Shown here one piece after another: positions 9,225 through 11,226 of a DNA stretch of 49,924 bases; position 1 is the first letter of the stretch, and each line of letters starts with the position of its first letter. The notes beneath the pieces are model-generated. The model did not search any database and had not been told where the DNA came from. It was given only the letters and a program-made list of their open reading frames with translations. The stretch is from Piscinibacter caeni (lineage in GTDB: Bacteria > Pseudomonadota > Gammaproteobacteria > Burkholderiales > Burkholderiaceae_C), in assembly GCA_003265685.1 (NCBI GenBank), contig KZ836110.1, positions 1 to 49,924 on the forward strand, in the 5' to 3' direction. A program made the position numbers and the translations under genes.

Positions 9225-10270
9225 GCCGCGGCGGCAAACGCGGCGTCGAGCTGCGCGATCCAGCCGGCCTTGGCCGCGGCGTCGGCGAAGCTCGCCTCGA
9301 AGCTGTTGCGCGCCAGCACGTAGGCCTCGCGCGCGCCGAGCTGCGGCAGCGCGGCGAAGGTCTCGACGAAGTTCTGGTTGACGTAGCCGCCGAAGTAGGC
9401 CGGGTCGTCCGAGTTGACGGTCGCCTTCAGCCCGGCCGCCAGCAGCGCGGGCAGCTGGTGCTCCGCCATGGTCTTGTAGACGCACAGCTTCACGTTCGAC
9501 AGCGGGCACACCGTGAGCGGAATGCCCTCCTTCGCCAGGCGCGCCAGCAGTGCCGGGTCTTCCACGCTGCGCACGCCATGGTCGATGCGCTCGACCTCCA
9601 GCACGTCGAGCGCGCTGCGGATGTATTCCGGCGGCCCCTCCTCGCCGGCATGCGCGACGACATGCAGCCCGGCGGCGCGCGCGCGGTCGAACACGCGCGC
9701 GAACTTCTCCGGCGGGTGGCCGCGTTCGCTGCTGTCCAGCCCGACGCCGATGAAGTGGTGCTTGTACGGCAGCGCGGCCTCGAAGGTGGCGAGCGCCTCG
9801 TCCTCGCTCAGGTGGCGCAGGAAGCACAGGATCAGCTTCGCGCTGATGCGCAGCTCCTGGTGCGCGCGCCGGCAGGCATGGTCCAGGCCCTTGATCACCG
9901 TCTCGATGGGCACGCCGCGTGCGGTGTGGGTCTGCGGGTCGAAGAAGATCTCGGCGTGCAGCACGTTGTCGGCCGCGGCGCGCTGCAGGTAGGCCCAGGC
10001 CAGGTCGAAGAAGTCCTGCTCCTTCAGCAGCACGCTGGCGCCGGCGTAGTAGATGTCGAGGAAGCTCTGCAGGTCACTGAAGGCATAGGCCGCGCGCAGC
10101 GCCTCCACGCTCGGGTAGGCGAGCGCCACGCCGTTGCGCTGCGCGAGCCGGAAGATCAGCTCGGGCTCGAGCGAGCCCTCGACGTGCATGTGCAGCTCGG
10201 CCTTGGGCATGGCGCGCAGCAGCGCGGGGAGGCGATCGCGCGGGATGGCGTCGAAGTTGGTGAAGGTCAT
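9218..10270 (-). CDS. Adenine deaminase (adenosine deaminase-like family)
   Basis: 350 residues of the adenosine/AMP deaminase superfamily, TIM-barrel amidohydrolase. Zinc ligands are His27 and His29 (HMHVEG), His207 (VAHAGEEG) and Asp288 (NSDDPAYF), with catalytic Glu210 and His231 (ERIDHGV). The [14 protein letters not shown] and [11 protein letters not shown] blocks match the bacterial group shown to deaminate adenine rather than adenosine (adenine deaminase type 2, as in Pseudomonas PA0148), so adenine to hypoxanthine plus ammonia is the best call; adenosine is the alternative. Its ATG overlaps the Rieske gene's stop as TGATG, implying translational coupling. It is the last gene of the purine transport operon. 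Confidence 0.88.
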
Positions 10271-11226
10271 GGCGTCACTCCGAACGTGATGGCGTGTTCC
10301 TTCAAGTATCGGCGGTAGGCCGCCGAACTGCGGTCGGCGGCGCAGTGCACCTCGCCGCTCAAGGGCAGCCGCTTCGGCCGCTGCGACTCGAGCACCGGCT
10401 GGTCCTGCGTGAAGATGGTGTGCTGGAAGGCGCTGATCTCGGCGTCGCTGGAATCGAAGTCGGTCAGCGCCATGCGGAACCAGACCCGGCTGGTCTCCTC
10501 GTCGACCGGGCTGACCAACAGCGCGATGTCGTCGCGGTAGCCGCCCTGCCTCTCGGGCAGCTTGCTCAGCAGCGCGGCGTAGGGCGCAAGCAGCTCGTAG
10601 CGGTAGTCGACCCACGAGCCTTCGGTCGAGAGCCGGTTGCTCTTCGGCTGCCAGGCGCGGCAACCGGTGGCGACGAAGCCGGTCGGCGTGGGCTCGGTGC
10701 GGTAGTCGGCGAGCGCGACATGCGCGCGGTCGCCCAGCCAGCCCTCGTGCACGAAGCCGAAATGGGCCAGGTCGAGGAAGTTCTCGACGATGCGCGGCGC
10801 GCTCGTGGCCACCACGTACGGACCGACGTTGAGCTTGCGCAGCCTCGCATCGGTTTCCGCGTCGAAGCGCGGCAGCGGGGCGTCGGGTTGCAGCTGCAGC
10901 CACAGCAGCCCGTGCGCCTCGACGACACCGAGCGTCGCCAGGCCATGCGACGCCGGCGGCTCGAAGGCCGGCAAGGCGGGGATGTGGGCACAGCGCCCGC
11001 TGCCCTCGAAGCGCCAGCCGTGGTACGGGCACTCGAGCTGCCCGTCGCAGACGCGGCCGAGCGAGAGCCTGGTGCCGCGGTGCGGGCAGCGGTCCGGCGC
11101 GGCGCGCGGGCTGCCCGCGGCGTCGCGCCAGAGCACGAGGTCGTCACCGAGCAGGCGCACGGCGACGGGCGCCTCGCCCAGCGCCGATGCGTCGAGCACC
11201 GGGTGGGCGAAGCGCTTCTCCACCAT
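10267..11226 (-). CDS. Rieske non-heme iron oxygenase, alpha subunit, in a purine operon
   Basis: 319 residues. The Rieske [2Fe-2S] motif is Cys47-Pro-His49...Cys66-Pro-Tyr-His69. The mononuclear iron site follows as Asn149-x2-Asp152-x2-His155-x4-His160 ([13 protein letters not shown]). Length and C-terminal [11 protein letters not shown] segment fit the VanA/NdmA-like single-subunit oxygenases that depend on a separate reductase; none is encoded nearby. The ATG overlaps the upstream BMP stop and the TGA overlaps the deaminase start, both as TGATG, so the three proteins should be made together. Known purine-linked Rieske enzymes are HpxD (with HpxE, hypoxanthine to xanthine in Klebsiella) and the Ndm methylxanthine N-demethylases. 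A purine substrate is strongly suggested by context; the exact reaction is inference. Confidence 0.88.

Follow-up and report, generated by a model that had tools for sequence, protein, structure and literature searches.

An intact single-chain Rieske oxygenase related to NdmC in a purine import and breakdown locus of Piscinibacter caeni

Among the Rieske non-heme iron oxygenases, the described systems closest to the gene considered here are the methylxanthine N1- and N3-demethylases NdmA and NdmB with their dedicated reductase NdmD, the 7-methylxanthine N7-demethylase NdmCDE of Pseudomonas putida CBB5, and HpxD, a subunit of the molybdenum-independent xanthine hydroxylase. NdmC is without a Rieske domain of its own and depends on that of NdmD and on the glutathione S-transferase (GST)-like NdmE (PMC4408171). 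The Rieske enzymes of the xanthine riboswitch RF03054 are described as resembling the hpxD/E products and as tied to purine genes (PMC7373994). The window, which is the whole stretch of 49,924 nucleotides of Piscinibacter caeni analysed here (assembly GCA_003265685.1, contig KZ836110.1, positions 1 to 49,924 of the forward strand), encodes on its minus strand (10267..11226) a further Rieske oxygenase of 319 amino acids, in an uninterrupted open reading frame (ORF) from 11226 to 10267, which represents a widespread and apparently unstudied enzyme of an operon for purine import and breakdown. The protein may serve as oxygenase component in a Rieske monooxygenase specific for purines, the most likely activity being the oxidative N-demethylation of methylated nucleobases with electrons from a donor encoded in trans; this reading is held here with about as much confidence as doubt.

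Cofactor sites and gene junctions

The window protein matches the domains PF00355 Rieske (77.3 bits, cutoff 20.3) and PF19112 VanA_C (80.5 bits, cutoff 23.5), the second of which is a likeness to the vanillate O-demethylase VanA but is a broad domain, matched also by the NdmC-type protein of the P. caeni contig C12. The predicted fold has the two domains of a Rieske oxygenase alpha subunit (comparison by VIA-align). Conservation was counted in 80 named loci, which are the best 80 of 573 and lean to close relatives, some of them duplicating genomes counted under other handles, such as L085/G007 and L162/L197. The Rieske ligands Cys47, His49, Cys66 and His69 (CxH...CxxH), read as intact in an earlier note on this DNA, are indeed near-invariant, being kept in 79-80 of the 80 orthologs, with the absent cell falling beyond the local alignment. 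The iron site given in the same note as Asp152/His155/His160 is conserved residue by residue, each being invariant in 80/80, but its assignment is corrected in one respect: Asp152 is the bridging aspartate between subunits, and the iron triad consists of His155, His160 and Asp275, the last kept in 79/80. The spacing of Asp152/His155/His160 equals that of Asp161/His164/His169 in the solved SxtT, where the third iron ligand is Asp280 (PMC7293229).

In comparison with the closest congener ortholog, the non-synonymous divergence (dN) is 0.048 and the synonymous divergence (dS) 0.280, which marks the ORF as a gene under purifying selection. The two junctions of the gene are of different kinds, so that the earlier claim of TGATG overlaps at both ends holds for the 5' end, where the stop of the BMP-family gene and the Rieske start share TGATG (11224..11228, minus strand), and fails for the 3' end, where the Rieske stop (TGA) and the deaminase start (ATG) overlap by the four bases ATGA (10267..10270, minus strand) and the junction reads CCATGACC. 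Across the named loci, the stop of the Rieske gene and the start of the deaminase gene, with start codons estimated by script, overlap by 1 to 26 bases in 36 of the 61 junctions measured, and in a further 13 the deaminase starts within 60 bases past the Rieske stop. At the other end of the gene, an overlap with the BMP stop is the exception: only 2 of 75 measured loci have it, and the remaining 73 show a gap, with a median of about 100 bases when the distance is taken to where the match begins, which need not be the true start codon. A close BMP-Rieske junction is thus no general feature, and the Rieske-deaminase overlap is common.

Relation to NdmC, HpxD and other Rieske oxygenases

Catalytic-domain identities of the window protein range from 35 to 42% with NdmC-type proteins, from 35 to 37% with HpxD and from 25 to 29% with NdmA/B, and stand at 23% with the xanthine-riboswitch Rieske enzymes; identity alone cannot part NdmC from HpxD, whereas the final tree can. 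This tree, built from the catalytic domain (61 rows, 221 columns) and rooted on the riboswitch group, omitted 16 of 72 rows and added 5, the preceding tree having omitted 23 of the 72; both superseded a first one with an outgroup branch of 6.8 and many open forks. The trees hold 16 of the 80 named loci, three HpxD rows and no VanA sequence, and their NdmC-type rows were recognised by architecture, not by a verified CBB5 NdmC sequence. Loci L069 and L070, at contig edges, were dropped before alignment, and L015 before the trees on account of an out-of-frame Rieske stretch, while L072-L074 were kept in alignment A1 though later found outside the clade. The core group comprises 25 rows with a support of 100/97, and together with the Oxalobacteraceae-type and 12 NdmC-type rows it forms one clade of 45 rows at 100/99, which is joined by three distant single-chain relatives at a node of 98/93; neither node includes HpxD, the riboswitch group or NdmA/B, the last of which form a separate clade. 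Placement among aromatic-acid oxygenases without purine neighbours, which would have spoken against the earlier note, is therefore not what the phylogeny proposed there against HpxD and NdmA/B/C gave: the window protein stands in the NdmC-type clade and has purine-type neighbours.

Common ancestry of the window family with the NdmC-type proteins is thus well supported. That NdmC descended from within the single-chain family is only suggested, since the grouping of the NdmC-type with the Oxalobacteraceae-type rows is modestly supported (82/58, against 99/99 in the preceding tree), and a single clade of the single-chain rows without NdmC was not rejected by a topology test made with the preceding tree (p 0.173). 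The residues at 193, 222 and 274 split along the division made by the tree. They are Q/K/Q in the window protein, in 13/13 NdmC-type rows and in the three distant relatives; Q193 and K222 are invariant among the family rows of the tree, with Q274 replaced by E in one and by G in another, and all 80 named loci retain Q193 and K222, with Q274 present in 78 of 79 aligned. The triplet is S/I/E in HpxD, and NdmA/B have T or P at the first position, no K at the second and, at the position before the iron aspartate, Glu in place of the Gln of the window protein. A candidate single-chain member, G908_single, was rejected, with the triplet E/I/E and a branch outside the clade.

These data bear on the possibility that the protein is an HpxD-like hypoxanthine or xanthine hydroxylase, acting as an oxygen-dependent bypass of the molybdenum enzyme, as the earlier note had considered. 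The identity to HpxD, near that to the NdmC-type, and the shared purine catabolic context are in its favour; yet the three HpxD rows branch outside the clade and differ in all three residues, HpxD genes are adjoined by a reductase gene of the PDR/VanB type (HpxE-like) whereas none adjoins the window gene, and the xanthine dehydrogenase is itself encoded in the locus, at least 42 of the 80 loci having XdhA close to the Rieske gene, so that the bypass appears improbable. Control by the xanthine riboswitch was rejected: the window has no riboswitch by Rfam at the gathering threshold, and the two Rieske genes seen beside RF03054 sites, which lie directly upstream of them (G018:C2:155194-155249 and G084:C1:1314046-1314101), belong to the distant group, a separate clade. 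RF03054 was found in 7 of 32 ortholog genomes, in 6 of them over the cutoff, and occurs as divergent pairs of sites in G010, G030, G084 and G168.

The NdmC-type rows are without Rieske ligands, and those with surroundings read mostly have as neighbour a Rieske domain, either on its own or fused to a reductase, often with a GST and in some cases with FrmA/FrmB, in accordance with the description of NdmCDE (PMC4408171); one row (Lichenihabitans), near the start of its record, has no such neighbour listed. BMP genes stand beside several NdmC-type genes, as beside the window gene. In contrast to NdmC (PMC4408171), the window protein retains its own intact Rieske domain, and no reductase, GST or FrmAB gene was found beside its gene. 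An NdmC-type locus is present in P. caeni itself, on contig C12 (L038:3100-10224), with a Tsx-like channel, a BMP protein, a Rieske-domain protein, the Rieske-less NdmC-type protein, a reductase, a GST, FrmA and FrmB; this has the appearance of an N7-demethylase locus that lacks NdmA/B. In a congener, the locus L055 (G003:C11:232001-252000) combines an NdmA-like protein, an NdmB ortholog, an NdmC-type protein, a reductase, a GST, FrmA, FrmB and two BMP genes, that is, a near-complete caffeine N-demethylation cluster; its NdmB ortholog matches the solved NdmB at E 6e-146, its NdmA-like protein groups with the solved NdmA, and it adds a 351-aa protein of TIM-barrel type by eye, matched by no NCBIfam model. 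The fused NdmD form (about 620 aa) occurs in L232, and L176:6995-8809, on a plasmid of Variovorax paradoxus VAI-C, has the NdmD fusion the other way round: an NdmC-type catalytic domain is fused to the reductase (604 aa), and a separate Rieske-domain protein is encoded upstream.

The purine neighbourhood and its bearing on the substrate

Down the minus strand, the order of genes is guanine deaminase, xanthine/uracil-type permease, Tsx-like channel, ABC (ATP-binding cassette) ATPase, two permeases, BMP lipoprotein, Rieske oxygenase and ADA-family deaminase, and xdhA, xdhB and xdhC are divergent from them on the plus strand. The 350-aa deaminase (9218..10270) has 3ou8/3pan as its closest solved relative (E 7e-122), and the PDB label of the latter as well as NCBIfam NF006850/TIGR01430 name the type adenosine deaminase; we take the 3ou8/3pan protein to be PA0148, which deaminates adenine, and the gene beside the Rieske gene probably encodes an adenine deaminase. 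The BMP-family (PF02608) substrate-binding protein (11226..12401) was assigned by its domain match, and its lipobox LAGC by reading. The earlier placement of a BMP gene 5' and a deaminase gene 3' of the Rieske gene is thus borne out, with the deaminase given as ADA family. Then follow, all on the minus strand, the two permeases (12458..13378 and, with an uncertain start, 13380..14525) and the ATPase (14485..15999) of the BMP-type importer, the Tsx-like outer-membrane channel (16060..16911), assigned by reading without a family match, the PF00860 xanthine/uracil-type permease (16990..18405), the guanine deaminase (18363..19727; TIGR02967, 480 bits, cutoff 375.4) and a LysR-type regulator (19667..20689), the last three with uncertain starts. 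The xdhABC genes reported earlier are present on the plus strand, XdhA (20759..22228; TIGR02963), XdhB (22243..24612; TIGR02965) and the accessory protein XdhC (24615..25490; TIGR02964) all scoring over the curated cutoffs. A second BMP-family binding protein (6007..7161, minus strand) has a match in 41 of the 80 orthologous loci.

Many genera share the BMP-Rieske-deaminase neighbourhood. The neighbourhood count proposed in the earlier note gave a BMP match in 75/80 and a deaminase match in 65/80 named loci, besides matches to the ABC genes in 62-67, GuaD-like amidohydrolases in 53, XdhA in at least 42 and XdhB in 40; these counts are too low where contigs or flanks end early, as many do, and those of the ATPase and GuaD are too high, since some of the matches are low in identity. 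Among distant relatives, a 37% one on a Bacillota plasmid stands beside a guanine deaminase and an NCS2-like permease (the permease by reading), and a 34% one on a cyanobacterial plasmid beside BMP and ABC genes. The purine role proposed earlier is supported by these conserved loci and distant neighbours together with the NdmC-type clade. That the substrate is instead a non-purine aromatic compound, the position in a purine operon being accidental, is scarcely credible in view of the BMP and deaminase association across the 80 loci and of the clade placement, even though many Rieske oxygenases use aromatic acids and the relatives of the window protein are named aromatic ring-hydroxylating dioxygenase in public records.

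As to the kind of purine, PF06181 (PuuD-type urate oxidase) was found in 25 of 27 ortholog genomes, P. caeni included, and not in G132 and G244, and a urate oxidase role of the Rieske enzyme was rejected as unnecessary on this account. With Xdh in the locus and PuuD in 25/27 genomes, no further oxygenase is required for hypoxanthine, xanthine or urate, and a modified, perhaps N-methylated, purine is therefore favoured as the substrate, in agreement with the earlier preference for something other than hypoxanthine. By descent, the protein is nearest to a type of enzyme that takes a methyl group off a purine nitrogen, and the nearby genes deaminate adenine-, guanine- or 8-oxoguanine-type bases; a monooxygenase for modified purine bases upstream of deaminases is the simplest reading, and the enzyme probably trims such bases ahead of deamination. 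In the proposed mechanism, the BMP-type ABC importer would bring in purine bases or nucleosides, and the Rieske enzyme would oxidise the modified base with O2, drawing its electrons from a ferredoxin or reductase whose gene lies elsewhere; oxidative N-demethylation would convert the N-methyl to an N-hydroxymethyl group and, with the loss of formaldehyde, yield free adenine- or guanine-type bases, which the adenine and guanine deaminases, Xdh and PuuD would then take over.

Two facts weigh against N-demethylation: no formaldehyde genes were found beside the single-chain gene in the 108 loci searched, and the closest solved enzymes, SxtT/GxtA, are hydroxylases. For these reasons the hydroxylation of an unmodified purine at C8 or C2 of the ring, such as that of guanine to 8-oxoguanine or of adenine to 8-hydroxyadenine, with the neighbouring deaminase removing the amino group, is kept as a serious rival, though a rather unlikely one. 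SxtT/GxtA hydroxylate C-H bonds (PMC7293229); they were placed by the match list only, being absent from the trees, and differ from the window protein in acting on saxitoxin-type substrates in toxin biosynthesis, according to the same source. HpxD, which forms a near outgroup, is also annotated as a hydroxylase. In the subgroup typified by Oxalobacteraceae, moreover, an 8-oxoguanine deaminase gene lies near the Rieske gene in six distinct loci, adjoining it in L195, L193, L054 and L197 (the same as L162), which come from two genera, and separated from it by 3.5 to 4 kb in L196 and L163; the calls were made at 622-642 bits (cutoff 532) for L195, L054 and L197, and by tblastn identity (56-91%) for the others. 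Yet among the 108 loci 8-oxoguanine deaminase is confined to this subgroup, to which the window protein does not belong, and in the core group its place is mostly taken by the ADA-family deaminase; guanine deaminase and Xdh already get to urate, and the clade of the window protein holds NdmC-type rows and not HpxD. One of these loci, L195 (G230:C14:230001-250000), carries a run of XdhB, XdhC, ABC importer, PuuD, guanine deaminase, Rieske, 8-oxoguanine deaminase and urease-like genes, that is, a whole purine-to-ammonia route in one stretch, the urease genes being named by reading only.

Within oxidative N-demethylation, a more specific proposal may be advanced only tentatively, namely that the enzyme is a nucleobase eraser, which would remove a methyl or larger alkyl group from free modified bases, among them perhaps N6-methyladenine, 1- or 3-methyladenine or 7-methylguanine, and hand the bare base straight to the deaminase encoded by the overlapping gene; it would then be the Rieske-intact sister line from or beside which NdmC arose. 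The modified bases would be released by the turnover of RNA and DNA. The dealkylation of a larger N6 substituent as the main activity, for instance of plant cytokinins to give adenine to the neighbouring deaminase, appears highly improbable: the deaminase gene is present in 65/80 loci and overlaps the Rieske gene in 36/61 junctions, and a few host names suggest roots or soil (Root219, Root1238, radicis), but the distant members adjoin guanine deaminase or 8-oxoguanine deaminase genes, and one search of the open literature gave no report of a Rieske enzyme with cytokinin degradation.

To our knowledge, no member of the window Rieske family has been characterised, and none was found in the open-access literature. 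The same literature gave no paper on a ring-hydroxylating dioxygenase together with xanthine dehydrogenase, guanine deaminase and purine, and none linking Rieske, 8-oxoguanine deaminase and 7-methylguanine in bacteria; Rieske and adenine deaminase appeared together only in a text-mining paper, and the BMP-Rieske gene pair was not recognised among the 15 papers listed out of 306 that matched. What is new here is a putatively purine-acting, single-chain Rieske oxygenase, a sister of NdmC, the gene of which is welded to a purine deaminase gene. If N-demethylation is true, it would give a function class to a Rieske family that occurs in Comamonadaceae, Sphaerotilaceae and Oxalobacteraceae and the relatives of which bear no public annotation other than aromatic ring-hydroxylating dioxygenase, would reveal a bacterial route for the recycling of methylated nucleobases, and would place the odd split NdmCDE of caffeine breakdown beside an ordinary single-chain nucleobase enzyme. 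We know of little evidence for a catabolic step on methylated nucleobases in bacteria.

Electron donor, distribution and other genes of the window

The window family poses a clear electron-donor problem. No Rieske-type reductase was found in the 35 window ORFs scanned, a few gene-like ORFs lying outside that scan, as the earlier note had said of the missing reductase gene. Among the 108 loci there was no GST match and a reductase match in one (L131); in L194 a ferredoxin-reductase-like gene, named by reading, lies 3.5 kb away. A dedicated reductase in the locus was thus rejected, and in the genome of P. caeni the reductase of contig C12 gives five matches, itself among them, all of them off the contig of the window, so that an electron donor in trans is possible. 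At E 1e-10, the C12 reductase has a match in 19 of 27 ortholog genomes and none in the other eight (G024, G030, G058, G132, G149, G195, G230 and G274), which makes a donor of another type likely at least in those eight, perhaps a general ferredoxin system.

Orthologs were found in 7/7 other genomes of the genus (at least 76% identity), in 7/28 further genomes of the family (52-63%) and in 1/24 further genomes of the order (48%). Over the order, a match at E 1e-50 occurs in 20 of 300 genomes, P. caeni counted, three of which (L072-L074) proved to lie outside the clade. The class sample gave a match at E 1e-30 in 7/369 genomes, the four outside the order being NdmC-type or distant Rieske proteins, and the phylum sample an alignment-profile match at E 1e-60 in 15/299, including partial NdmC-type matches and one HpxD. 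The named orthologs include Piscinibacter, Rhizobacter, Acidovorax, Variovorax, Delftia, Comamonas, Ramlibacter, Hydrogenophaga, Duganella and Noviherbaspirillum. The out-of-frame stretch in the Rieske region of the ortholog L015 (G005:C1:764040-764990), from a genome 77% complete, is likely a sequencing error, since the matches to the neighbouring genes are fragmented too.

Elsewhere in the window, a BLUF blue-light sensor gene (2683-3255) is followed by a LigB-type dioxygenase gene (3313-4164), both on the plus strand, and a small gene at 26334-26894 encodes an Mrr-type restriction endonuclease domain (PF04471, 72 bits).
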